Shown piece by piece: positions 1,338-32,288 of a stretch of 33,505 nt of DNA. The stretch is from assembly GCA_902779315.1 (NCBI GenBank), contig CACZBC010000004.1, positions 1-33,505 on the forward strand, given 5' to 3'. The number at the start of each line of letters is the position of its first letter. Position 1 is the first letter of the stretch. The stretch comes from an uncultured Bacteroidales bacterium (GTDB lineage Bacteria > Bacteroidota > Bacteroidia > Bacteroidales > Bacteroidaceae). A program made the translations under genes and the position numbers. The notes under the pieces were generated by a model. The model worked only from the letters and a program-made list of their open reading frames with translations, did not search any database and was not told where the DNA came from.

Positions 1338-1345
1338 TACCTTTG
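1338..1345 (+). promoter_or_regulatory. -7 box of the CPBP protease gene
   Basis: TACCTTTG at 1338-1345 fits TAnnTTTG, 25 bp ahead of the ATG at 1370. The upstream element is poor (TTTC around 1318). The TTG inside this box is in frame with the gene and could be mistaken for a start codon; as part of the promoter it should not be translated. Confidence 0.6.
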
Positions 1346-1369
1346 CATACAGATAAAACGGAATTTAGC

Positions 1370-2071
1370 ATGAAACTATACTTAAGTTATAAGAACATTC
1401 ATATTGGTGCAATCGTTACTTTCTATATAATAGCCTTACTGGTACGTCTGATATCATTGTTTTTTGTCAACAAGTATCCTTCAATTGAAACGAACTATGC
1501 ATTTCAGGTTTCTGCAGCGCTTGCCTCGGGACTTGGTCCCGCCATCGGGGCATTGGTGGCTATGCTTATTTTCAAACGTAAAACGGAATACACTCTCGCA
1601 GGCAAATCCATCTGGAAGTCCATTGCAACCATAATTATACCATGTATCGTTTTTGGCATTATCGGCGGATGGGACTTGGGCGTGACATGTTTGTTGGCAT
1701 TTGTGTATGGACTTTTGGAAGAATTTGGTTGGCGAGGATTTTTGCAATATGAACTCAGGGAATTACCGATGTGGCAATATGTACTTATCATCACGGTGAT
1801 GTGGTTTCTATGGCATTTAGATTTAACTCAGCGAAGTGTTTTGCCATTCTTTCTGCTTCTTCTTTTCGCTTCATGGGGAATAGGAAAGGTGGCGAATGAA
1901 ACCCATTCATTGCTATTTTGTGCTGCATTTCATGGCATCGTGAATTTCGTGAAACGTGATCTGTTTTCTGACAAAACTTTCACCATGGCTTTTATATGCA
2001 TAATCGTCTTTTGGATAGTTATGTGGTATTTTGTCGGTATTTCCCCAAAACAGCAAGGAAGAGAAGACTAA
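1370..2071 (+). CDS. CPBP family intramembrane metalloprotease
   Basis: A membrane protein of 233 residues with about seven hydrophobic segments. It carries the three CPBP/Abi motifs: EEFGWRGF (E117-E118, R122), FLWH some 25 residues later, and HGIVNF near the C-terminus. These His and Glu residues form the proposed metal site of the Rce1-like fold. Bacterial members are implicated in bacteriocin self-immunity or processing of membrane peptides; nothing nearby fixes the role. I chose the ATG at 1370 because the in-frame TTG at 1343 lies inside the -7 box. It stands alone on the plus strand, convergent with the GH89 pseudogene. Confidence 0.87.
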   Translation: MKLYLSYKNIHIGAIVTFYIIALLVRLISLFFVNKYPSIETNYAFQVSAALASGLGPAIGALVAMLIFKRKTEYTLAGKSIWKSIATIIIPCIVFGIIGGWDLGVTCLLAFVYGLLEEFGWRGFLQYELRELPMWQYVLIITVMWFLWHLDLTQRSVLPFFLLLLFASWGIGKVANETHSLLFCAAFHGIVNFVKRDLFSDKTFTMAFICIIVFWIVMWYFVGISPKQQGRED

Positions 2072-2166: not shown

Positions 2167-2247
2167 TTACACGTGTGTCGTTGGCCAACGTGGCACGTGT
2201 AATTCGCCAACGACACACGTGTAGTTTTGAATTTACCCACATGTAGT
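2167..2247. repeat. 22-24 bp periodic palindromic array, locus 1 (between convergent genes)
   Basis: The word ACGTGT recurs at 2171, 2195 and 2217, and a variant ATGTAG at 2241, giving spacings of 24, 22 and 24 bp. The region also forms a perfect 18-bp inverted repeat: arm 2168-2185 (TACACGTGTGTCGTTGGC) pairs with 2206-2223 around a 20-base loop. The loop itself contains the palindrome CACGTG. The word GCCAACGTGGC (2184-2194) is the exact reverse complement of a word repeated twice in locus 3. Lying between two gene 3' ends, it could double as a bidirectional terminator, but no strong U-run follows on either side. Confidence 0.8.
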
Positions 2248-2249
2248 TT

Positions 2250-4315
2250 TTACTTTATGTGAGCCCATTTGTTTTCGAAGTCCCAAATTTCAGCATCGAA
2301 CTTCAGGGCGCGCTCGCATTCCTCTTTTGTCTTGCCTTTGGGAATGTTTGGACCTTTCATGTTGACAAACGGCTCGCCTGCATCATAAGCTGCCAGAACG
2401 GCATCGAAGAACTTCTGCCAGCGGACTTTGTAGAAGGTCTCCACAAGGCCGTCATAGTCGCGATTGGCGTAGTCCGTGAGTCGGTACGTATCACCCCAGA
2501 CAGTAATGATGGTGCGAGCGTTCATCTCGAAGTAGTCTTTCTCCGCCTCAGTCGTGCCCCAAGCACGAGCATCACGAATCCAGTCGTCGAGCGAGAAGTC
2601 CTTGCAGCCCTTTATCGCCGAGACCATCTTGTCGCACATTCCCAAGAACTCTTTGGAAGCCGCTACCATTCCTTCCCTATCACCTGCTTTATAAGCATCC
2701 GAGAAACGTTTCCTTACGGCCAGAGCATTATTGCGAATGGACTGACGGCGTGTGTTGGCGAGGTCGAACTTGAGATAGTTGGACGAGCCTTCCACCTTCT
2801 CCAGGATGGCCAATGCTTCGTCGAGATTCTTGATTTCGTAGCCCTTGCGGAGCTCTGTTGTCCAGTTCCATTCACCCTCCAGGTTGGGGTGAGCATTGAT
2901 GATGCCAGCCGCACCAGTACTCGTGTGAGTGGTGCAGACCTTGTCCACCATTGTGTGCCAGAAAGCCCGATAGTTCGCATCCACGCGGCCAAGATGGCGG
3001 TCGGCTATATTGTCGATATATTCATCAAAGCCGACGCCCGTGTCCCAAGGCTGAGCCAACAAAGCCTCGTAGATAGGCTCGTTTACGCCAAAGCCTTCGA
3101 GCGTGGAGCCGATGCCCACAAACTCCTTTCCACCATCCTTCTTCGCGCCGGCAATCAACTTCGCATTATGTTTGTAGTCGCCTTCTATCTCCGTCATTCC
3201 GCCGAAGTTGCCCAGGTAGCACCAGATGAACTTGTGTCCGTAGAAATGCTCCGTCATTCGCCATATCTCGGTATAGTCGCACTCGTAGTCGAGCATAATC
3301 ATCTTGCCTATGGGAACGGCACCAAGGTAGGCTTTGATGCGTTCGGGCGTCCAGGCTCTCTTGTTGCTGATGAAGAGCCAAGCCATCTGCAGCCAGATTG
3401 CTTCGGGGTCAACACTTGCGAGGGACTGATAGACGCCGGCTGAAATCTTGGCAAGCGAATCGGGTTCCCATGATGGGGGCGAGACTTCGTTGAAGAGGTC
3501 CACGCCATAGATGTGGTTCGTGCCGTACATCTTGGTCTGCTCCTCGAGGAAATCCCTCTGGATGCGGGCAAAGATGGGGTCTGACGGGTTCAGGTAGGTG
3601 CAGCGGTACTTCTCGTCGAAGTTGCACCAGCGGTTCACTTTCGAGGTTCTGATGCCCGGGACAGCCTGTTCCAGGTCAGAGGGAACATGACCGGCGAAGG
3701 CAGGAAGGACTGGCGTCATGTTCAGTTCGCGCTCTCGCTCAAGGATTTGCTTCTGCAACTCAGCCTGCCCGTCAATCCAACTTTGCGGGAGCGGACCTTG
3801 CCAGCGGTCGATATTTATCATCCGTTGCCAAGGCAGATGGGCAGGACCTGTGAAGTAGGCACGGATTTGCTCGTCGGTCAGGCCGTACTTGCGCCACACC
3901 TTCTGCCAGACGGCTTCCTGGCCTGTAATGGCGAGCGGCATGTTCACGCCGTTCAAGGCCATCCAGTCGATGAAGCGTTCCCATTGCGGCCACTTCCACC
4001 AAGGCATCGTGTAGCCGAAAGTGCAGTGAAGTCGTACCAGCTCACATTCGCGAGGCAATACTGCTGGATGTAGCGGTTCAGACCGACGGCCATGGAGTTG
4101 GCATTGTTGCCTCGGATGAGGACTTTCTTGCCCTTCTGGAGCAGTTCGTAGGAATCTACAGGCGATTCGGTCTGTTCGAAGATAACGGCTTTCGCCTTGC
4201 TGCCCATCACTCTGCGGGCCAGAGCTTCTGCAGCCCTCTCATCAGCCGTCTTGAATGACATAAGAACTAACGAAACGACCAAAAGCAAGATAGATTTAAA
4301 GATTTGTTTGTGCAT
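2250..4315 (-). pseudogene. alpha-N-acetylglucosaminidase (GH89, NAGLU-like), interrupted
   Basis: Two overlapping frames encode the N- and C-terminal parts of one GH89 enzyme, which removes terminal alpha-GlcNAc from glycans. The N-part (4315 down to about 4020) has a signal peptide (MHKQIFKSILLLVVSLVLMS) and the NAGLU N-terminal domain ending NRYIQQYCLANVSWYD. The C-part resumes at CTFGYTMPWWKW in another frame and runs to 2250, with FNEVSPPSWEP (likely acid/base Glu) and STLEGFGVNEPIYE (likely nucleophile Glu). From memory of intact Bacteroidetes homologues, some 30 residues between VSWY and the NYCTFGYT motif are missing, so this is a deletion plus frame change. The ATG at 4058 could start the downstream piece, but without a signal peptide. 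An assembly or read error is a less likely alternative. Confidence 0.82.
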
Positions 4316-4395
4316 AGTTATTAGTTATTGTGACGTTCTGTAGTTATATCGAATGATTTCCTTTCATGATAATAACTTTTTCGAGTGCAAAGATA

Positions 4396-4427
4396 CAAAG
4401 ATAAATCCAAAACAGATGCATTCAAAA
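4396..4427 (-). promoter_or_regulatory. promoter of the GH89 gene
   Basis: Minus-strand TTTTG (4423-4427), a 19-bp spacer and TATCTTTG (4396-4403) form a textbook Bacteroidetes promoter. A second overlapping TATCTTTG (4388-4395) lies just downstream. The promoter is intact although the gene it serves is broken. Confidence 0.75.
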
Positions 4428-4507
4428 TAAATAATTTCAAAATTAAAGGAGTTAGAAGGAGATAGAAAGTTGAACACTCTCAAATAATAAGACCTGGTTA
4501 GATTAAT

Positions 4508-4541
4508 AAAAAAAGATTCCCAATCTCCCGACTAAGAATCT
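4508..4541 (-). terminator. rho-independent terminator of the tRNA-Asp gene
   Basis: On the minus strand AGATTCTTAG (4532-4541) pairs with TTGGGAATCT (4514-4523) over 10 bp, with some G-U pairs, around an eight-base loop. It is followed directly by a run of T (plus-strand A run at 4508-4514). It lies 43 bp past the tRNA 3' end, so the tRNA appears to be a single-gene transcript. Confidence 0.75.
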
Positions 4542-4583
4542 CAACCTTAAAAATCTAATACCATGAAAAACACTTTTGCTTCG

Positions 4584-4662
4584 CGGTGCGGACGAGGCTC
4601 GAACTCGCGACCCCTAGCGTGACAGGCTAGTATTCTAACCTAACCATCTGAACTACCGCACC
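4584..4662 (-). tRNA. tRNA-Asp (anticodon GTC) with enlarged D-loop
   Basis: The minus strand folds as a cloverleaf: acceptor GGTGCGG/CCGCACC, D-stem GTTC/GAAT, anticodon stem CTAGC/GCTAG with loop CTGTCAC (anticodon GTC, Asp), five-base variable loop, T-stem GCGAG/CTCGT with loop TTCGAGC, and discriminator G at 4584. CCA is not encoded. The D-loop is 14 nt (AGATGGTTAGGTTA) instead of the 9 nt of a typical tRNA-Asp, because GGTTA is tandemly duplicated. All stems remain intact and it has its own promoter and terminator, so it may be functional. Tertiary contacts of the two G residues in the D-loop could use either copy. Confidence 0.9.
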
Positions 4663-4681
4663 AAATTTGCTTTAGCGAATG

Positions 4682-4713
4682 CAAAGGTAACTCTTTCTTG
4701 CGACATACGCAAA
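4682..4713 (-). promoter_or_regulatory. promoter of tRNA-Asp
   Basis: On the minus strand TTTG (4710-4713), a 20-bp spacer and TACCTTTG (4682-4689) match the Bacteroidetes consensus closely. The -7 box ends 19 bp before the tRNA 5' end. The promoter separates the tRNA from trmB upstream. Confidence 0.75.
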
Positions 4714-4746
4714 TTTTCCTGCAAGAATTTTCTTCCTTTCTTCTTT

Positions 4747-5505
4747 TTATATATGTTTTTCGCAGCCACTTCGCTTTTCGCGACTGTAAGAACGATATTC
4801 GTCGAGGGGAATTTCCACATCAGGTTCCACGAGAGGAGTGCCTTGATGAAGCTTGAAACAGAGGTACTTGATGTCGATACCTCGAGCTCGCCACATACTC
4901 TCGTAATAGGTTTGGATGGAAGAAGCGAAGCCCCCGTCTGCCTCACCATAGAGGTTACGAGTCTTCACTTCTGCCTCGATGTTGTTTGCTTTGAGCAGTT
5001 CCTCGGTATATGTGAAGAGGAAGTTGGAGTCGGTCTTGAGATGAATGAGTCCGTCATCGCAAAGGAACTGCCTGTATCGTTCGAGGAAGAAGGTGCTGGT
5101 GAGGCGCTTCGTGACCTTTTTCATCTGAGGGTCGGAGAAGGTGAGCCATATCTCGCTAACCTCGTTGGGACCAAAGAAACGCTGGATGAACTCGATGTTT
5201 GTGCGGAGGAATCCCACGTTCTTCATGCCTGTCTGCAGGGCTTCCTTTGCTCCTGTCCACATTCGAGCTCCTTTGATGTCTACGCCAATGAAGTTCTTGT
5301 CTGGCACTTGCTTCCCAAGTCCGACTGTATATTCGCCTCGACCACAACCTAGTTCGAGCACAATAGGGTTCTGATTGTGGAAGAAGTCTTCGTGCCAACG
5401 TCCTCGAAGGGGGAAGTCTTCTTGCATGACTGCCGACATAGGGCATTCCACCACAAGAGGGTTTTGTGCCATTTCGGCAAACTTGGCAAGCTTTCCTTTG
5501 CTCAT
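4747..5505 (-). CDS. trmB: tRNA (guanine-N7-)-methyltransferase TrmB
   Basis: A 252-residue SAM-dependent enzyme that methylates G46 in the tRNA variable loop. The SAM-binding motif ELGCGRGEY is at residues 51-59, followed by the acidic strand end IGVDIKGAR. The TrmB active-site region reads [11 protein letters not shown], and [17 protein letters not shown] and the C-terminal segment are also typical. Its ATG overlaps the stop codon of the upstream coiled-coil gene by one base (TAATG on the minus strand), implying translational coupling. Length matches the Bacteroidetes family. Neighbouring tRNA-Asp is on the same strand but has its own promoter, so the pairing is probably coincidental. Confidence 0.95.
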
Positions 5506-6380
5506 TACTTGTCGAACGTGAAATGAGTGGTGCCGATGTTTTGGCCGTCTGCAAAGATGTCCACGCGATAGTTGCCTGCACTCAGAGCCTCAGCAACGTC
5601 CCAATAAACTGTCACGCTTTGTTCTTCGCCAGTATATTCGATGTCTTTGCGAATGCTGTACTCGAGCTGACGGTTCTCGTAGGCAAAGGTTCCACCCTTC
5701 GAGAGCACATCTCCTGTTGGAGTTGTGATGCGGACATAGAGGCTGCGGATGCCTGTTGAGGTTGTGACGTTTCGAGCTATCGTGAAGCCGATTACGAACT
5801 TCTTGACGTCCTTTATCTGCTTGGCTGCCTTACCTTTCTTGTTATGGCCTACAGCATAGATTCCTGTTGCGTCGAGCTGGCTTGCGATTGCAACTTTATC
5901 GGAGAGCGATTCGTTCTCTGTCGAGAGGTTGGAGATGTGCTGACGGGCTTGCTCGTTCTGCGTCTTGAGGTTTGAGTTCTCCTGTGTCAGGGCTTCGTTC
6001 ATGCGGTTAAGCGAGTCAATCTGAAGGACATAGCTTCGCAAGACTTCCCGCAGAGTGGCGAGTTCTTTCTTCAGTCGCATGATTTCGGCTGCGTCGCTGC
6101 TCTTCACTCTGCGCAGTTCCTCGAGCAGTTCCTCTGTTCGCTTCTGCTCCATTTCGAGCTGAGCTACGAGCGAGTCGTTGTTGATCTGCGTCTTCATTTC
6201 GTTGTACTGCATGGCGAACTGTTCGTACTCGTTCTCCATCTCGAGTTTATCCATCTCAGCCAACTCAAGCATCTGTTTGCTTTCGAGAGTCTGTTGACGC
6301 ATTGTATAGAGAAGGAAACCGATGACGAGAGCCGCTATCAGTGCTACTACTCCAAGTATTATCTTTGTCTTCTTATCCAT
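5505..6380 (-). CDS. membrane-anchored coiled-coil protein of unknown function
   Basis: I do not recognise a named family. From the ATG at 6380 the protein has 291 residues. After a short basic N-terminus comes one transmembrane helix (about residues 6-25), then about 140 residues of heptad-rich, Glu/Leu/Lys-rich sequence predicted to be a coiled coil. A C-terminal domain of about 115 residues follows (from [27 protein letters not shown]..., shortened here) that looks beta-rich and contains [15 protein letters not shown] and [21 protein letters not shown]. The C-terminal domain probably lies in the periplasm. The ATG was chosen because an in-frame TTG at 6416 overlaps the -7 box. The gene is translationally coupled to trmB. 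Confidence 0.8.
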
Positions 6381-6413
6381 ATCTGTTTGTTGTCTTTCTT
6401 TAGTTTTCGTTTG

Positions 6414-6421
6414 CAAAGGTA
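6414..6421 (-). promoter_or_regulatory. -7 box of the coiled-coil/trmB unit
   Basis: Minus-strand TACCTTTG (6414-6421) fits TAnnTTTG, about 34 bp before the ATG at 6380. The upstream element is weak (TTTTC near 6441). It sits just downstream of the hairpin at 6455-6492. Confidence 0.6.
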
Positions 6422-6454
6422 CGAAGAAAATTTGAAAGATGAAAATTGATATAT

Positions 6455-6492
6455 AAAAAAAGCTCCGTCATCGTTGTTGATGGCGAAGCTTT
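6455..6492 (-). terminator. minus-strand terminator of a vanished gene
   Basis: On the minus strand the stem AAAGCTTCGCCATC (6479-6492) pairs with GATGACGGAGCTTT (6459-6472) at 13 of 14 positions, with loop AACAAC, and runs into seven T residues. It is a good intrinsic terminator, but the only minus-strand reading frame ending ahead of it is a 14-codon vestige with its stop at 6527-6529. It may now insulate the promoter of the coiled-coil gene. Confidence 0.65.
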
Positions 6493-6526
6493 CTATATTA
6501 TAAATAATGTGTGAACTCTCGATCAA

Positions 6527-6571
6527 TTACCATTCCTCGTCCCAGAATGCAGCATTTTGGCAGTCGAATTT
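6527..6571 (-). pseudogene. possible C-terminal vestige of a small acidic-tailed protein
   Basis: Minus-strand codons read KFDCQNAAFWDEEW followed by TAA at 6529-6527, with an in-frame TGA directly before K. The ending resembles the Trp/Asp/Glu-rich tails I recall from small Bacteroidales proteins of about 50-70 residues. An intrinsic terminator follows 35 bp downstream, as expected after a real gene. The rest of the gene is absent and the upstream DNA is the 22-bp array. This could be chance: 14 codons is short. Confidence 0.3.
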
Positions 6572-6600
6572 TCAAATCGCTAGAGTGAGGCTCCAAAACT

Positions 6601-6733
6601 ACACTAGTGAAGTTTGCAAACTTCACACTAGTAAATCGTAAACTTCACACTAGTAAATCGCAAACGTCACACTAGTAAATCGCAATCGTCGCACTATACA
6701 AATGCAAACGTAACACTATACAAATGCAATCGT
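6601..6733. repeat. 22-bp tandem array, locus 2 (between divergent genes)
   Basis: Five consecutive 22-bp units run from 6624 to 6733 (starting at 6624, 6646, 6668, 6690 and 6712). Units 1-3 are nearly identical (CACACTAGTAAATCGCAAAC plus two bases); units 4-5 diverge together to an ACTATACAAATGCAA-type sequence. Just before them lies a perfect 20-bp palindrome, GTGAAGTTTGCAAACTTCAC (6607-6626), whose left flank is an inverted copy of the unit's ACTAGT word. There are no unique spacers between units. The array lies about 70 bp upstream of the mrp promoter. Confidence 0.85.
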
Positions 6734-6779
6734 CACTAAGGTCGTTTTCCGTCAATCCTGAAACTTCTCCCCTTTTCGC

Positions 6780-6810
6780 TTGCATAAGTCCGATTTTTTC
6801 ATTAACTTTG
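6780..6810 (+). promoter_or_regulatory. promoter of mrp
   Basis: TTG (6780-6782), a 20-bp spacer and TAACTTTG (6803-6810) match the Bacteroidetes consensus. The leader to the ATG at 6829 would be very short, about 12 nt. The rest of 6572-6779 holds only the 22-bp array and AT-rich spacer. Confidence 0.7.
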
Positions 6811-6828
6811 CAGCCAAAAAGAAAACCT

Positions 6829-7929
6829 ATGGAACTCTATCCTCAACTCATACTCGACGCCCTCTCCACAGTTCGCTATCCTGGGACAGGCAAGAACATC
6901 GTGGAAATGAAGATGGTGGACGACGACATGCGAATCGCCGGCCTCAGCGTCTCCTTTACCCTCATCTTCGACAAACCGACGGACCCCTTCATGAAGAGCG
7001 TCGTGAAAGCGGCTGAAGCAGCCATTCACGCCTATGCTTGCAAAGAGGCTGAAGTGGAGATAAAGACAAAGACTTTGCAGGCTCCAAGACCCGATCTGCC
7101 TGACCTTCTGCCTGGAGTGAAGAACATCATCGCAGTCTCGAGCGGCAAAGGCGGTGTGGGAAAGAGCACAGTTGCCGTCAATCTGGCTGTGGCTCTGGCC
7201 AGGATGGGCATGAAGGTGGGCTTGCTCGACTGCGACATTTTCGGCCCTTCCGTACCTAAGATGCTACAGATGGAGGACGCTCGTCCCTATAGTGAGAACA
7301 TAAATGGACGCGACCTGATCCTTCCTGAAGAGAAGTATGGCGTGAAAGTTCTCAGCATAGGATTCTTCGTGAACCCAGAGCAAGGCATAATGTGGCGAGG
7401 CGGAATGGCCAGCAACGCCCTGAAACAACTCATCGGAGACGCTAATTGGGGCGACCTCGACTACTTCATTCTCGACACACCTCCAGGTACATCGGACATC
7501 CATCTCACACTCGTCCAGACCATTCCCATCACCGGTGCCGTCATAGTCAGCACGCCCCAGCAAGTGGCTTTGGCTGATGCCAGGAAGGGTATCGACATGT
7601 ATCAGAACGAGAAAATCAACGTTCCCATTCTGGGTTTGGTTGAGAACATGGCTTGGTTCACCCCAGCACAGCACCCAGAAGAGCAGTATTACCTGTTTGG
7701 AAAGGAAGGCGTCAAGACTTTGGCCGAGCAGATGAAACTGCCGCTTTTGGCTCAGATTCCCGTCGTTCAAGACATTTGCGAGAGTGGAGACAACGGCATT
7801 CCCGCTGCCACAAATCCTGCCAGCATAACAGGGCAGGCATTCCTCCAACTCGCTGCCAAAATCATTACAGAAACGGACAAACGAAAAGCAGAACTTCCGC
7901 CCACACAGATAGTTGGAGTAAAGAGTTAA
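6829..7929 (+). CDS. mrp: Mrp/NBP35 family Fe-S cluster carrier ATPase
   Basis: A 366-residue cytosolic P-loop protein. Residues 1-80 form a MIP18/DUF59 domain (MELYPQLILDALSTVRYPGTGKN). The deviant Walker A motif SSGKGGVGKST lies at about 103-113, followed by LLDCDIFGPSVPKML and the switch DTPPGTSDIHLTL. Family members bind and deliver Fe-S clusters. The C-terminal CxxC that bridges a cluster in many bacterial homologues is absent: the site reads VENMAWFTPAQHPEEQYYLFG, which from memory is the usual Bacteroidetes form. The start was set at 6829 because the promoter occupies 6780-6810, ruling out upstream in-frame starts. The GH16 gene begins 32 bp downstream. Confidence 0.93.
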   Translation: MELYPQLILDALSTVRYPGTGKNIVEMKMVDDDMRIAGLSVSFTLIFDKPTDPFMKSVVKAAEAAIHAYACKEAEVEIKTKTLQAPRPDLPDLLPGVKNIIAVSSGKGGVGKSTVAVNLAVALARMGMKVGLLDCDIFGPSVPKMLQMEDARPYSENINGRDLILPEEKYGVKVLSIGFFVNPEQGIMWRGGMASNALKQLIGDANWGDLDYFILDTPPGTSDIHLTLVQTIPITGAVIVSTPQQVALADARKGIDMYQNEKINVPILGLVENMAWFTPAQHPEEQYYLFGKEGVKTLAEQMKLPLLAQIPVVQDICESGDNGIPAATNPASITGQAFLQLAAKIITETDKRKAELPPTQIVGVKS

Positions 7930-7961
7930 CATAAACGCGTAACAAACACATATTCAGCGAC

Positions 7962-9296
7962 ATGAACCACATTAAAACTTTGCTCTGCATGATGGCTTGC
8001 ACCCTGTCCATAATGGCTCAAAGCATGAGCGTTCACAGGGGAGAAGAACAGACATTCTTCAACATAAGTGAGGTGGACAGCATCACCTTCGATCCGACAC
8101 CCAATTTGTGGCAAAACGCAGAGAAAAGCATCCGCTTCTATTACGCTCCCAGTTGGAACCAGATTGCCGACCCGACTTATACGGAACAGAACGGCACATA
8201 CACCCTGACGCTTACCAGAGCGACCAGCGCACAATGGCAAGCACAAATGCACTTCATCACCAACTTGGCGACAGACGCTCACAAGAACTACAACTTCCGC
8301 ATTAAAATCCGCTCTGACAAAGCGCTCACAGCAACTGTAAAACTCTATCAGGACGGCAACGACAACCTCTATTTCTTCGAAGAACGCCTTCCTGTTGGAG
8401 CAAACGAAGAGTGCTCCTTCGAGCGCAAAGATATGCCAGGACTTGACATGAATCGCGTCTGCCTCGTTCTCGACTTTGGCAGCAACAGAGCAAACACAGA
8501 GGTGAAAATCAGCAGCATATCTTTCACAGAAAAGGACTACGACTCTTCGCTCGACCTGAACTCTTGCCCCCTACCCGACTACAGACTCGTCTGGAATGAC
8601 GAGTTCTCGTCCAGAACCATCAGTTCCACTCGTTGGACTTATCAGACGGCCGATGCAGGATGGGTCAACCACGAATTGCAGACCTACGTCAACGGGAAAA
8701 GTCCGAAAGGTACAAAGGTTGCCGAAAGTAGCGACGGAACCTTGAAAATCCACACTTTCAAGGAAGGGGAAAAGATCTATAGTGCACGGCTTTACGGTCG
8801 CAAATCAGTAGGCTTCAAGTACGGCTACATCGAAGCTCGCATCAAGCTCCCTAAAGGGAAAGGGACTTGGCCTGCCTGGTGGATGATGCCCGTAAGTGGT
8901 GGAGGCTGGCCAGGCTGCGGAGAAATCGACATCATGGAAGAAGTGGGCGTCGATGCCAACGATGTTTCCAGCAGCATTCATTGTGCTGCATACAATCATC
9001 CGGCCAACACTCAGAAGACGCATCACCTCTATTGTGTTGGAGCGGAAGAAGGTTTCCACGTCTATGCCCTTGAATGGACTGAGGACTACATCCGTACTTA
9101 TGTCGACGGAAAGGAGCAGCTCTACTTCGAGAACGACCATGAAGGCAACAACGATACCTGGCCCTTCAACAAAGCTTTCTACCCCATCCTCAATGTGGCT
9201 TGGGGCGGCGATTGGGGCGGCTACAAGGGTGTCGACGAATCGGCCTTGCCTCTAACGATGGAGGTCGACTATGTCCGAGCCTGGCAAAAGGAGTGA
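7962..9296 (+). CDS. secreted GH16 family beta-glucanase (laminarinase-like)
   Basis: A 444-residue secreted enzyme. The signal peptide ends about MAQSM (residues 18-22). Then comes the short 'FFNISEVDSITFDP' motif common in secreted Prevotella/Bacteroides proteins. Residues about 45-190 resemble a CBM4/9-like carbohydrate-binding beta-sandwich. The GH16 catalytic domain runs from YRLVWNDEFS (about 205) to the end, with NHELQTY, GYIEARIKLPKGKGTWPAWW and the catalytic motif GEIDIMEEVG (E321, D323, E326). The family cleaves beta-1,3- or beta-1,3/1,4-glucans by a retaining mechanism. No SusCD pair is nearby. The 32-bp gap and lack of a TAnnTTTG box suggest read-through from mrp. Confidence 0.92.
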   Translation: MNHIKTLLCMMACTLSIMAQSMSVHRGEEQTFFNISEVDSITFDPTPNLWQNAEKSIRFYYAPSWNQIADPTYTEQNGTYTLTLTRATSAQWQAQMHFITNLATDAHKNYNFRIKIRSDKALTATVKLYQDGNDNLYFFEERLPVGANEECSFERKDMPGLDMNRVCLVLDFGSNRANTEVKISSISFTEKDYDSSLDLNSCPLPDYRLVWNDEFSSRTISSTRWTYQTADAGWVNHELQTYVNGKSPKGTKVAESSDGTLKIHTFKEGEKIYSARLYGRKSVGFKYGYIEARIKLPKGKGTWPAWWMMPVSGGGWPGCGEIDIMEEVGVDANDVSSSIHCAAYNHPANTQKTHHLYCVGAEEGFHVYALEWTEDYIRTYVDGKEQLYFENDHEGNNDTWPFNKAFYPILNVAWGGDWGGYKGVDESALPLTMEVDYVRAWQKE

Positions 9297-9303
9297 GGAG
9301 TCA

Positions 9304-9413
9304 AAACATAGGCAGCCACGTTGGCAAACATAGGCAGCCACGTTGGCAAACTTAACGTGTTAAGTTTACAAACACAACATGCCTAGTTTGCGAATTAGGC
9401 ATGCCGCGTTTTA
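9304..9413. repeat. 22-bp tandem array, locus 3 (upstream of the polysaccharide operon)
   Basis: Two identical 22-bp units (AAACATAGGCAGCCACGTTG plus GC, at 9304-9325 and 9326-9347) are followed in the same register by diverged units at 9348, 9370 and 9392. The third is centred on the near-palindrome CTTAACGTGTTAAG. Units four and five together form an inverted repeat, ATGCCTA (9379-9385) with TAGGCAT (9396-9402), echoing the TAGGCA word of units 1-2. GCCACGTTGGC, present twice, is the exact reverse complement of a word in locus 1. It lies just past the GH16 stop and about 50 bp before the operon promoter. Confidence 0.83.
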
Positions 9414-9464
9414 CAGAACCACTTGTCAGACATCCTTAGTTAGCAAATTTTTACTCCTAAACAC

Positions 9465-9627: not shown

Positions 9628-10695
9628 GTGGTAGAATACAACGTTTCACTCGAAGGGAAAACCGTGCTTGTAACGGGTGCTGCAGGGTTTATCGGCAGCA
9701 ATCTTGTCGTACGACTCTTCAAAGAATTCAAAGATATCAAGGTTATCGGCATTGACTCGATGACTGACTACTACGACGTAAATCTCAAGAAGGAACGTCT
9801 GGCAAAAATCGAAGCACTTGGTCGCGATTGGACTTTCATCAAGGTATCCATTGCCAACAAGGCATGCATCGACAGTCTTTTCGCAGAGTACAAACCTGCT
9901 GTGGTAGTGAATCTTGCCGCTCAGGCTGGGGTGCGTTACAGCATAACCAACCCAGATGCTTATATCGAAAGTAATCTCATCGGCTTTTACAACATTCTGG
10001 AAGCCTGTCGACATTACGAAGTAGAACATCTCGTCTATGCCTCAAGCAGCAGCGTTTACGGCTCGAACAAGAAAGTGCCCTACTCTACTGACGACAAAGT
10101 GGACAATCCCGTCAGCCTCTATGCCGCAACGAAAAAGAGCAACGAACTGATGGCGCATGCTTACAGCAAACTCTACGACATACCAAGCACAGGCCTGCGT
10201 TTCTTCACGGTATATGGTCCTGCAGGTCGTCCGGATATGGCTTACTTCGGCTTCACCAATAAGCTTCGCGAAGGAAAGACCATCCAAATATTCAATTACG
10301 GCAATTGCAAACGCGACTTCACCTTTGTCGATGACATCGTAGAAGGCGTAGTCCGCGTCATGCAACATGCACCTGAGAAACAGAAAGGCGAAGACGGGCT
10401 GCCAATTCCACCTTACAAGGTATACAACATCGGCAATAATTCTCCGGAAAATCTGCTGGACTTCGTCACAATTCTGCAGGAAGAACTTGTTGCAGCAAAA
10501 GTGCTCCCATCCGATTACGACTTCGAGTCGCACAAAGAGCTCGTGCCCATGCAACCTGGCGACGTACCTGTCACCTTTGCAGACACAACACCGCTCGAAC
10601 ACGATTTCGGTTTCCGCCCATCCACCCCACTCCGTCAAGGCCTTCGCGCCTTCGCTCGGTGGTATGCGGATTATTACAAGACAAACGAGGCTTAA
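9628..10695 (+). CDS. NAD-dependent epimerase, UDP-glucuronate 4-epimerase-like
   Basis: A 355-residue short-chain dehydrogenase/reductase of the extended type. The NAD-binding motif TGAAGFIGS is at about residues 16-24, SSSSVYG carries the catalytic Ser/Thr region, and Y165-x3-K169 (YAATK) is the catalytic pair. IDSMTDYYDVNLKKERL, YSITNPDAYIESNL and FTVYGPAGRPDMAYFGF are characteristic of UDP-glucuronate 4-epimerases (UDP-GlcA to UDP-GalA). GTG is taken as the start because an in-frame TAG immediately precedes it. It is the first gene of the polysaccharide operon and probably supplies UDP-galacturonate. A UDP-glucose dehydrogenase for its substrate is not in the window. Confidence 0.88.
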   Translation: MVEYNVSLEGKTVLVTGAAGFIGSNLVVRLFKEFKDIKVIGIDSMTDYYDVNLKKERLAKIEALGRDWTFIKVSIANKACIDSLFAEYKPAVVVNLAAQAGVRYSITNPDAYIESNLIGFYNILEACRHYEVEHLVYASSSSVYGSNKKVPYSTDDKVDNPVSLYAATKKSNELMAHAYSKLYDIPSTGLRFFTVYGPAGRPDMAYFGFTNKLREGKTIQIFNYGNCKRDFTFVDDIVEGVVRVMQHAPEKQKGEDGLPIPPYKVYNIGNNSPENLLDFVTILQEELVAAKVLPSDYDFESHKELVPMQPGDVPVTFADTTPLEHDFGFRPSTPLRQGLRAFARWYADYYKTNEA

Positions 10696-30224: not shown

Positions 30225-30256
30225 CAAAGGTACAATTTTAAATTCAAAATTCAAAA
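30225..30256 (-). promoter_or_regulatory. promoter of the amidase-MlaD-kinase operon
   Basis: On the minus strand TTTTG (30252-30256), a 19-bp spacer and TACCTTTG (30225-30232) match the consensus. The TTTTG lies within a 15-bp tandem repeat, so further TTTTG copies occur at 30267-30271 and 30245-30249. Confidence 0.75.
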
Positions 30257-30279
30257 TTTATAAATTCAAAATTTATAAA
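30243..30279. repeat. 15-bp AT-rich tandem repeat across the promoter and the receptor stop codon
   Basis: TTCAAAATTTATAAA occurs as two perfect adjacent copies (30250-30264 and 30265-30279), preceded by a partial copy TTCAAAA (30243-30249). The second copy includes the stop codon and last Leu codon of the TonB receptor. The first contains the -33 element of the amidase promoter. Confidence 0.85.
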
Positions 30280-32288
30280 CTCAGTCTGAATCGTGCTCCC
30301 GCCATCACCCATATACCTGGTTGAGGGACCGAGCCAAGGTCGTAATAGCGGTGATTGGTGATGTTTGTCGCTTGGACGAAAAGCTGGTAGCGAGGCGCAT
30401 CCCATTGCATCTTGGCGTCGAGCATGGCATAGGGATGATAACCGACTAGTTTTCCATCACTTACATAGCTGCCTATGCGCTCTTGCCAATGGAAATCCCA
30501 ACTCATCGAAAGGCGATTGTAGATGCGATGTGAAAGGCTAGCCACAAACTTGTGACGCAGGTACTCCATTGCCACATTGCTCTTCACAACACCTTCCGCA
30601 TCGTGCTTCTTCTGATGGATGAAGGTATAGCCCATACTGAGGGAACGCATCCAAGTATCGCGTCCAAGAAGCTCTGGAAAAGCAATCTTTCCTTGAACCT
30701 GAACACCCACATTATCAAGGTTGAAAGAAGCAGTATGGAAGATGTCGTCAGCCGAATACATCACCCAGTCAATCATCTGTGTTCCACGATGATAGAAGCC
30801 TTTCACGCTTGCTTCTGCCCCATTCCAACGATGCTCTGCTCCAAGCGAAAGGGAATGGTTGTGCTCGGCTTTCAAGTCGCGATTGCCTTCGTGAGTCGGG
30901 CTCTTATAATAGAGTTCCGTAAAGGTGGGCAAGCGGAAACCTTTGTTGTAGGAGAAGAGCAACTTCCATCGAGAAGTGGGACGATAGGCAACATCGATGC
31001 CCGGATAGAAGCGGAAACGATGGTCGATGGCCGACGTCATGCTCGCCATCAAGCCTGCCGAAATGGTCCAACGCCTCAGCAGGATGTTGTGTTCGAGGCT
31101 GAAGGAAACTGTCGTCCGATTGTCGCTCCAAGTATAGAAACTCCCTTCTGGTCGGAGATTGCAGCCAAGATTCGTGCTGAGGATGTTTTCGTGGCGAAAC
31201 AAAGCCGAAACTGCTGTCTTGCCAAGTTTCCAGTCGAAATGCCCTCCAGCCTTGACGCCATAGACGTCCGAACGATGGAAATTCTCGCCGAAAGTGGTGC
31301 CTCGAACAAGCTCGAAATTGTCGTAGGAACGGTTCCAAAAGACTTGTGGCGTGAAGTGGAAACGACCTTTCGTTTCGGCACTGACGCTCGTCATAAGTCG
31401 TTGATTCCGTTCATATTGGTCAGGATAATTGGCGCTGTAGAAGGTGTTGGCTCCGTAGCTTTTTTTCGAGAAACCGAACTGCCAGTCGAGCTTGAAAGAA
31501 CTGTCCTCGTAATCGCCTTGATAGAAGAGTTGCCCTTTTCGCCAAGAACTGTTGAGGGTGCCGCCATCGCTTCTGCCTCCACCACCGCTGATGCGGTTCG
31601 AAACTTTGCCTGTCGCGAGAGAGAAGCGAGCCTCGCCTTCTCCTGTGCCGAAGGAACCACCCCTGGCAGCAAGTTCGAGGTTCCTTCCGGACTCATGCTT
31701 CGTGACGATGTTGATGGCTCCACCAAAACTTTGCCCGCCATAAACACGACTGGCCGCGCCTTCGAGCACCTCGATGCGTTCTATGTCGCTGATGCTGACG
31801 GGAAAGTCTGCCGAAAGATGTCCTGTTTGGGGATTGCCGATGTCGATGCCGTTGAGCAGAAGCGTGACCTGGTCAAAGGTGCCGCCATCGATGCTGATGT
31901 CCGTCTGAATACCAAAGCCACCACGCTGACGGACGTCCACGCCTGTGACTAATTTGAATAGGTCGTTGATACTTTGTACCGCCGCCTGCTCGATTTCCTG
32001 ACGGCTAAGTACACTGACGATTCGTGCCGACTGCAATTGCGTCAGTGGTGCCATAGTGCCGCTCACGGTCACCTCCGCCAATTCCTCCTCTTCGACGATG
32101 TTCTCCTCTTCATAAGAGACAACTGGAGAACTCTGCCTTTGTGCTTGTGCCGCTGCAGCCACACCAAGAGTGGCGACGCTGAGGACACCGATACGCACTT
32201 GCCGATGAAGGCTGGCAAAGGCGCTGTAACCCTTGTTGGCAAACTGCTTCCAAGTAATTACGGCTGGCCTTTTCTGATGTCTGTGCAT
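30273..32288 (-). CDS. TonB-dependent outer-membrane receptor (BtuB-like size)
   Basis: A 671-residue receptor. It has a long N-terminal extension, about 50 residues, with RPAVITWKQFANKGYSAFAS before the hydrophobic signal core GVLSVATLGVAAAAQAQ, a form seen in several Bacteroidales receptors. An acidic stretch (EEENIVEEEELAEV) precedes the plug domain (about 75-190: INDLFKLVTGVDVRQRGG, VTLLLNGIDIGNPQTGHL, IERIEVLEGAASRVYGGQSF, GGAINIVTK). The remainder is a 22-strand-type beta barrel. There is no carboxypeptidase-like SusC domain and no SusD partner, so uptake of a cofactor or chelate is likelier than of glycans. It begins 23 bp after asnA and probably shares its transcript. Confidence 0.92.
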   Translation of the reverse strand: MHRHQKRPAVITWKQFANKGYSAFASLHRQVRIGVLSVATLGVAAAAQAQRQSSPVVSYEEENIVEEEELAEVTVSGTMAPLTQLQSARIVSVLSRQEIEQAAVQSINDLFKLVTGVDVRQRGGFGIQTDISIDGGTFDQVTLLLNGIDIGNPQTGHLSADFPVSISDIERIEVLEGAASRVYGGQSFGGAINIVTKHESGRNLELAARGGSFGTGEGEARFSLATGKVSNRISGGGGRSDGGTLNSSWRKGQLFYQGDYEDSSFKLDWQFGFSKKSYGANTFYSANYPDQYERNQRLMTSVSAETKGRFHFTPQVFWNRSYDNFELVRGTTFGENFHRSDVYGVKAGGHFDWKLGKTAVSALFRHENILSTNLGCNLRPEGSFYTWSDNRTTVSFSLEHNILLRRWTISAGLMASMTSAIDHRFRFYPGIDVAYRPTSRWKLLFSYNKGFRLPTFTELYYKSPTHEGNRDLKAEHNHSLSLGAEHRWNGAEASVKGFYHRGTQMIDWVMYSADDIFHTASFNLDNVGVQVQGKIAFPELLGRDTWMRSLSMGYTFIHQKKHDAEGVVKSNVAMEYLRHKFVASLSHRIYNRLSMSWDFHWQERIGSYVSDGKLVGYHPYAMLDAKMQWDAPRYQLFVQATNITNHRYYDLGSVPQPGIWVMAGARFRLSL

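Follow-up and report, generated by a model that had tools for sequence, protein, structure and literature searches.

What are the arrays of short palindromic words that repeat every 22 bp between genes of an uncultured Bacteroidales bacterium, and why do they lie where they do? The DNA concerned (hereafter, the window) is a stretch of 33,505 nucleotides (family Bacteroidaceae; assembly GCA_902779315.1, contig CACZBC010000004.1, positions 1 to 33,505). Its first-pass annotation, made from the sequence letters, reported such arrays at three intergenic loci (about 2167-2247, 6601-6733 and 9304-9413) and suggested a binding platform, a nucleoid-organising element or a mobile, self-copying repeat. 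The observation was confirmed, and the interpretation is partly supported. The arrays belong to a genome-wide family, larger than that annotation reported, which is located mostly after stop codons and at positions shared between species. Its words are common within a species and not between distant ones, they are confined to the arrays, and many arrays possess cap units. We tentatively regard the arrays as platforms for protein binding at transcription-unit ends.

A genome-wide family of 22-bp arrays

At each of the three loci the best self-matching lag is 22 (matched fractions of 0.58 at 2150-2260, 0.75 at 6590-6740 and 0.65 at 9295-9415 for loci 1, 2 and 3, respectively), with a second peak at lag 44, and in a 120-bp sliding scan over lags 10-44 these loci are the top three sites of the window. 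Tandem Repeats Finder (TRF) agrees, giving period 22 at 2216-2257, 6615-6736 and 9304-9351. The range of 22-24 bp proposed for locus 1 did not hold, the period being 22 there as well. Loci 1 and 3 do share an 11-bp word in opposite orientation, GCCAACGTGGC, which is found at 2184-2194 (plus strand), 9315-9325 and 9337-9347 (both minus strand). These are three matches against 0.02 expected, a number reached in none of 100 shuffles. Furthermore, relatives of the words of loci 1 and 3 are present at other loci.

The genome from which the window comes (G000; other G numbers designate related genomes and L numbers sampled stretches) has 2.83 Mb in 107 contigs and is 84% complete. Our sample consisted of the window and 20 further stretches of this genome (L006-L025), 419,163 bases in total, 505 of which were counted twice, as the start of L018 repeats the end of the window. 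A sequence-blind lag scan of this sample (score of at least 22) revealed 41, 23 and 9 segments at lags 22, 44 and 66, respectively, and a first-order Markov control gave 0 segments at lags 21, 22, 23 and 44; the arrays thus exceed chance. Lag 7 gave 14 segments and every remaining lag from 5 to 89 at most three, the heptamer tandem repeats being the sole other period in clear excess in the sample. With a looser threshold (score of at least 20), 44 arrays were found in the 419 kb, from which roughly 300 arrays per genome can be extrapolated if the sample is typical. BLAST with the array of locus 2 gave at least 41 further places in the same genome (77-94% identity), which is a lower bound because 40 of 281 first-look candidates were scored. 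The word ACTAGTGTGA occurs 63 times in arrays, twice in other intergenic DNA and never in called genes, and all six words tested occur in arrays, with a few copies elsewhere between genes and 0 in called genes.

Two other repeats of G000 may be mentioned here. A second family with units of ~22-24 bp (GAAAAAGTGTGATTTTCGC-like) can be seen by eye beside or inside arrays at L008:13351-13579 and L012:15678-16059, and a 22-bp array at L019:3515-3629 has words (ACTCTGCACGATGTTTCCCTTC) unlike the others of this genome.

Genes were called with a simple codon-usage script, which missed e.g. the Rce1-like open reading frame (ORF) beside locus 1, and the gene context is therefore approximate. Forty-two sampled arrays have called neighbours on both sides: 26 lie between tandem, 11 between convergent and 4 between divergent genes, and one overlaps a called gene. 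Of the tandem arrays, 20 out of 27 are closer to the upstream stop codon (median 28 nt) than to the next start codon (median 161 nt). No array was found in the 133 tandem gaps shorter than 50 bp; among longer gaps, arrays are present in 13 of the 26 tandem ones of 200-500 bp and in 8 of the 14 convergent ones of 100-200 bp. The direction of tandem arrays is independent of that of the genes (13 with, 11 against, 1 tie).

Shared positions and replaced words

Ortholog blocks around the window, L016 and L024 were searched for in eight or five genomes of the same genus; the blocks of the compared species are ~70-85% identical. The count covered 14 intergenic gaps of 60-900 bp, as delimited by called genes, 13 of which had at least one alignable ortholog; an ortholog array was accepted at a lag-22 score of 15. 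Where G000 has an array, so does the ortholog in 22 of 24 comparisons; where G000 lacks one, the ortholog has an array in 1 of 22. The corresponding Fisher p of 1.5e-9 flatters the contrast, because the comparisons share species and loci and are not independent, and because divergent genes flank two of the six array-free gaps that have orthologs, so that the contrast may partly reflect gap type. The ortholog lacked an array at this score twice, in G091 at locus 2 and in G039 at locus 3; in the latter case array-like words can nevertheless be made out (score 11.2). In the gap L024:1620, which exceeds 900 bp, all three aligned species have arrays; if this gap and locus 1 are included, positions are shared in 27 of 34 comparisons.

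The words at these positions are not the same. G000, G054 and G058 use ACTAGT and TATAG, whereas G039 has AACGTGTTA, G092 CCGCGTGCGG and G128 GTCGCGTGCGGCG. Arrays at the same locus in distant species share hardly more 9-mers (0.042, 48 pairs) than arrays of distant species compared across loci (0.037, 357 pairs), whereas different loci within one species share 0.169 (98 pairs); orthologs within the close trio G000/G054/G058 share 0.409 (14 pairs). None of 2000 permutations of species labels within loci matched the observed contrast (25 arrays, four species). Even within the trio, units differ when the arrays are read by eye: at L016:15369 the flanks and end units are kept, and TATAG units in G054 and G058 replace the ACTAG units of G000; at L016:9576 there are seven internal units in G000, five in G058 and three in G054; and the array at L016:3575 is reversed in G054 and G058 relative to G000. 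In these comparisons, the presence of the array and its frame are kept, and the sequence is rewritten in concert.

How far does the family extend? A G000-type 22-column pattern with one mismatch allowed, which finds 56 of the 82 arrays used for the unit model (see below) with 6 matches outside and 0 at spacings of 21, 23 and 24, matches 40 of 139 genus genomes (e.g., 503 matches in G000, 406 in G058, 377 in G054, 279 in G016 and G039, 249 in G092 and 165 in G128). Outside the genus it drops to background, i.e., 0-2 per genome in the 399-genome family set and 0-1 in the remaining 147 genomes of the phylum set. When named genomes were scanned with an exact pattern, 18 stretches were obtained, all of them in two metagenome-assembled genomes from yak omasum/rumen labelled Bacteroidaceae. 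Two exact dialect patterns had 0 matches in viral_contigs, and carriage of the arrays by phages was rejected on this ground.

The restriction to some species holds for the dialect, not for the architecture, because zero-match genus genomes carry lag-22 segments with other words. In fact, lag-22 segments were detected in 10 of 20 such genomes, sampled at 2.5-20 kb each; their words are quite different, some being clearly palindromic (AAGACGCGCGTCTT, TTTCTGCAGCAGAAA, TCACTCGAGT), and one of the 10 cases is a simple low-complexity repeat. Lag 22 also leads in other genera of the family, with 12 segments in the 752,576 bases sampled, followed by lag 44 (5 segments) and by lags 21, 33 and 66 (3 each). 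One genome of another genus, G146 (L234-L238), has the palindromes AAACAATATTGTTT and AAGTATTATACTT centred every 22 bp with short variable spacers; two word families stand side by side in it at L236:8542-8800.

Anatomy of the unit and of the three loci

One 22-column model was fitted to 82 arrays from G000 and related genomes, the stretches of the relatives being chosen mostly around BLAST matches. It accommodates 75 of them; the remaining seven were left out of the symmetry test. With a single model for so many arrays, and with relatives of the words of loci 1 and 3 elsewhere, the three loci are not separate designs. The idea of one design rewritten each time survives in the sense that the family has one design, the rewriting following mainly the species and not the locus.

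Columns 3-4 of the model are a GC linker, and the best dyad correlation (0.618) places axes at the linker and at the unit centre. The unit therefore consists of two facing 11-bp half-words, e.g., CAAACGTCACA and, on the other strand, CAATTTACTAG; CGTC is present inside the half-words of G000. The symmetry is imperfect. The innermost two bases are complementary in 3% of cases against 12% expected, which explains the AC or GT centres seen in 272 of 290 internal units; these were pre-selected at a model score of at least 15, which favours such centres. Units just outside the run have an AC or GT centre in 39 of 139 cases (70 arrays in this centre test). Palindromic symmetry is clearer in some species, e.g., in G039 (z 2.56). 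Orientations of the units are mixed in 19 of 40 arrays.

Many arrays differ at their ends from their interior. A cap rule, set after viewing the data, requires that the inner half of a unit starts with AGT, AAG, AGG or AGC; in the 42 G000 arrays studied it applies to 39 of 84 end units and to 3 of 360 readings of internal units, which were pre-selected by the same score, compared with 374 of 6,598 intergenic 22-mers of this genome (5.7%). A short array of this kind, consisting of a cap, one unit and a cap, is at L006:7397.

The three loci illustrate this architecture, and they lie, as had been described, between convergent, divergent and tandem genes. Locus 1 is in the convergent gap between the Rce1-like ORF (1343-2071, plus strand) and a NAGLU gene (2250-4058, minus strand). 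It comprises, in register, a possible cap unit, TATTGTTCACT AAGGGCATTCG, which contains CACTAAGG (2141-2162; model score -6.0, a cap by its core only), three internal units at 2163-2184, 2185-2206 and 2207-2228 (scores 21.4, 22.2 and 21.3; lag 22) and, where the gap ends, a unit that is degenerate or a cap (2229-2250, score 5.9). The G054 sequence aligns here with 85% identity over 577 bases, the array included.

Locus 2 is in the divergent gap between an ORF at 5505-6416 (minus strand) and a gene of the NUBPL/ParA type at 6829-7929 (plus strand). Its first unit (6595-6616, score 15.8) has the orientation '<', opposite to that of the other units; five internal units follow at 6617-6726, three of the ACTAGT and two of the ACTATA type (scores 23.2-28.9, within the period-22 region found by TRF), and then a cap unit, CAATCGTCACT AAGGTCGTTTT, at 6727-6748, where the edge of the array matches, by eye, that of the G039 ortholog. 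A minus-strand hairpin with a T-run can be seen by eye at 6456-6500 in the same gap; it was not reported by the terminator scan.

Locus 3 lies between tandem plus-strand genes, GH16 (7962-9296) and an epimerase (9628-10695). Two cap-like units with the common CATAGGC AGCCACGTTGG occupy 9303-9346 (scores 6.7 and 9.8, also detected by TRF); their G058 ortholog reads CATAGCC AGTGTCGTTGG. They are followed by two internal units at 9347-9390 (scores 21.7 and 15.8), the first of which, CAAACTTAACG TGTTAAGTTTA, is of a word type common in the species G039, and by the terminal unit CGAATTAGGCA TGCCGCGTTTT at 9391-9412 (score 10.8), with a near-identical end unit in G058.

Elsewhere in the window, a TonB-dependent receptor gene on the minus strand (30273-32288) has at its 3' end an A-T-rich 15-bp tandem repeat (30240-30283). 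Rfam at the gathering score gave a single match in the window, a minus-strand tRNA at 4584-4662 (RF00005, 55.6 bits), and none to the arrays; a known structured RNA family was therefore rejected.

Possible roles and known systems

As the presence of an array outlasts its sequence, there is probably selection for having an array at these places. Furthermore, one word set per genome, differing between genomes, requires either a shared reader or copying between arrays, and both may be at work. We give a probability of roughly 0.4 to the following reading: the arrays would be protein-binding platforms placed at 3' transcription-unit ends, read by a putative, fast-changing factor and homogenised by copying. 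It is favoured because the frame is exact, the facing half-sites are spaced by about one helical turn, the caps differ and direction is irrelevant. Each 22-bp unit would be a pair of facing 11-bp half-sites, and dyads would consequently recur about once per helical turn. A sequence-reading factor, probably an oligomeric protein, would bind the arrays and mark, insulate or organise the DNA between adjacent transcription units, whichever the direction of transcription. The preference of the factor would change, and arrays would swap units by copying (conversion or short-range transposition, in addition to local duplication of units); due to both, words would be rewritten in concert, positions and the 22-bp frame persisting. 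We infer a trans-acting factor, its protein nature, copying as the route of homogenisation and the platform role.

Several points weigh against this reading. No array-binding protein was found, although the binding platform is the best remaining of the roles proposed in the first-pass annotation. Copying alone, without a reader, could give the homogeneity within a genome, and several word families coexisting in one genome strain the assumption of a single-protein reader. Palindromic symmetry is weak in the words of G000 (mean z 0.68) and absent in G054 and G058 (-0.31). Of 42 arrays, 8 follow the cap rule, in inverted sense, at each end, 23 at a single end and 11 at neither. Four of the 42 arrays with called neighbours, locus 2 among them, are between divergent genes, and one of the 42 overlaps a called gene. 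At locus 1, where mostly the NAGLU side alone aligns, lag-22 arrays are present in two of seven other species, G054 (score 14.4) and G128 (score 28.8, with unrelated words).

Of the alternatives, a selfish palindromic repeat of the REP/BIME (repetitive extragenic palindrome/bacterial interspersed mosaic element) or MITE (miniature inverted-repeat transposable element) sort fares best, and we regard it as possible, though rather unlikely. Its enzyme would be encoded elsewhere, it would land preferentially in or over older arrays, and the words would represent a succession of subfamilies; arrays after genes would be tolerated because they do least harm there. The abundance of places similar to locus 2 (at least 41, 77-94% identity), the unit order TATAG then ACTAG repeated in several arrays, the reversal of the L016:3575 array in G054 and G058, as if it had been replaced, and older-looking word types remaining at some loci, e.g., at locus 3, are in line with this. 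However, a useless insert is not expected to stay in the same gaps across blocks of ~70-85% identity. The transposase points both ways: Y1_Tnp (PF01797) was detected in 10 of 30 genomes searched, including the high-copy genomes G016 and, weakly, G128, but it was not found in 8 of the 10 high-copy genomes with at least 53 pattern matches (G000, G054, G058, G039, G092, G088, G124 and G085, which are 62-89% complete). The REP-type transposase that the annotation proposed to look for is thus missing from most of them, and REP elements driven by a RAYT (REP-associated tyrosine transposase) were rejected. What stands of its mobile or self-copying repeat is that words are shared genome-wide and that units differ inside conserved arrays of sister species, and nothing beyond.

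We consider it unlikely that the arrays act through RNA structure, as bidirectional tandem-hairpin terminators or stabilisers of mRNA 3' ends. The view of the annotation that they are not simply terminators or promoters is partly right. Their placement in the genome is not random, most of them following stop codons, as terminators or stabilisers would, but when a fair control was applied no terminator role could be shown. A terminator-like hairpin with a U-run is present at 16 of 20 convergent ends without arrays and at 25 of 36 array-bearing ends with the array included (convergent arrays entering twice, with two ends), but 18.6 of 36 ends score with a shuffled array, and the excess due to the arrays is therefore small. 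The T content downstream of arrays is not enriched (0.30 vs 0.30). Relative to shuffled sequence, the RNA of arrays folds better (z of -2.15 in 88 folds and -2.26 in 76 folds) than that of 61 control gaps (-0.86), a modest gain which palindromes alone could give, and the GC-rich dialects of G092 and G128 resemble strong hairpins by eye. A first scan showed no exclusion of terminators by arrays. An apparent deficit of terminators beside arrays (11/36 vs 32/50, p=0.004) was dropped, since equal masking of array-free ends reversed the contrast; with arrays masked, terminators are at 11 of 36 array ends and 6.8 of 50 equally masked array-free ends (Fisher p 0.11). Terminators are thus kept no less often at masked array ends, and the two coexist. 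Moreover, a hairpin requires neither an exact 22-bp period nor a single word set per genome.

Still less probable is a functionless neutral satellite, with tandem units produced by slippage and spread by ectopic recombination. Units are alike within arrays and their number differs between sister species (7, 5 and 3 at L016:9576), but the 22-bp frame across unrelated words of the genus, its place as top lag in other genera, the location after genes, the shared positions and the distinct caps speak against it. Finally, the species-specific words near gene ends recall DNA uptake sequences, which also show species dialects, but uptake words stand one at a time across genomes, also in coding DNA, whereas the six tested words are in arrays and a few intergenic places and none is in called genes, and uptake-like address words, hardly credible on this evidence, were rejected.

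Returning to protein-binding platforms, a wider version, to which we give somewhat less credence than to the platforms themselves, is a genome-wide punctuation of Bacteroidaceae: arrays of 22-bp sites with caps would follow the genes and be read by a DNA-binding factor that evolves fast, at the same positions but in each species in its own dialect. With own dialects at the same positions, the factor and hundreds of arrays would co-evolve. If true, this system would correspond, in bacteria, to the concerted evolution of satellite DNA with the protein that binds it. A kept position with a freely replaced sequence is the reverse of usual intergenic elements and is invisible to alignment-based methods. 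Should the reader exist, the arrays would represent a new level at which a family of gut and rumen bacteria organises its chromosome or insulates transcription, and a tractable bacterial case of concerted evolution; should they be selfish, they would exemplify how a repeat can replace its earlier copies where they stand. In either case, they provide a genome-wide test bed.

Among known systems, the Sal boxes of mammalian ribosomal DNA (rDNA) are repeated protein terminator sites after a transcription unit, bound by TTF-I and co-evolving with this reader; here, many arrays are dispersed in a bacterium, and the reader is only putative. The G000 arrays inspected consist of head-to-tail 22-bp units without unique spacers, unlike CRISPR arrays (cas genes were not searched for). 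They are palindromic extragenic repeats of high copy number, as REP/BIME elements are, with weak symmetry in G000 (mean z 0.68). CGTC, seen inside the half-words of G000, is one of two tags (GTAG or CGTC) that mark one end of a REP palindrome. REP/BIME elements and REPINs (PMC3733652) resemble the arrays as short palindromic units that are numerous, extragenic, clustered and species-specific in sequence; the arrays differ in the lack of a RAYT in 8 of 10 high-copy genomes, the strict 22-bp tandem frame, the cross-species positions with replaced words and the cap units. The BrickBuilt MITE of Porphyromonas gingivalis (PMC4596501), also from the Bacteroidota, is intergenic and has tandem 23-nt repeats in a bounded element with inverted ends. 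It is reported there from P. gingivalis and P. gulae, with 19 copies in ATCC 33277, leader and tail segments, and terminal inverted repeats nearest to those of ISPg1/ISPg9, whereas the arrays, an estimated 300, have few units each and 22-bp caps, with no leader or tail seen. Hairpin clusters acting as intrinsic terminators (PMC8355165) similarly place several hairpin-capable units just past stop codons, but the arrays have a small hairpin-plus-U excess over shuffled sequence, and their period and shared words would be left unexplained. The open-licence literature searched contained no description of the array element; passages of PMC6344855, PMC7366714, PMC5771137 and PMC4060949 gave no match to it, and those on REP/BIME and BrickBuilt did not describe an element that unites an exact 22-bp frame with caps, shared positions and words replaced in concert. 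We file the arrays as a new variant of intergenic palindromic repeats.

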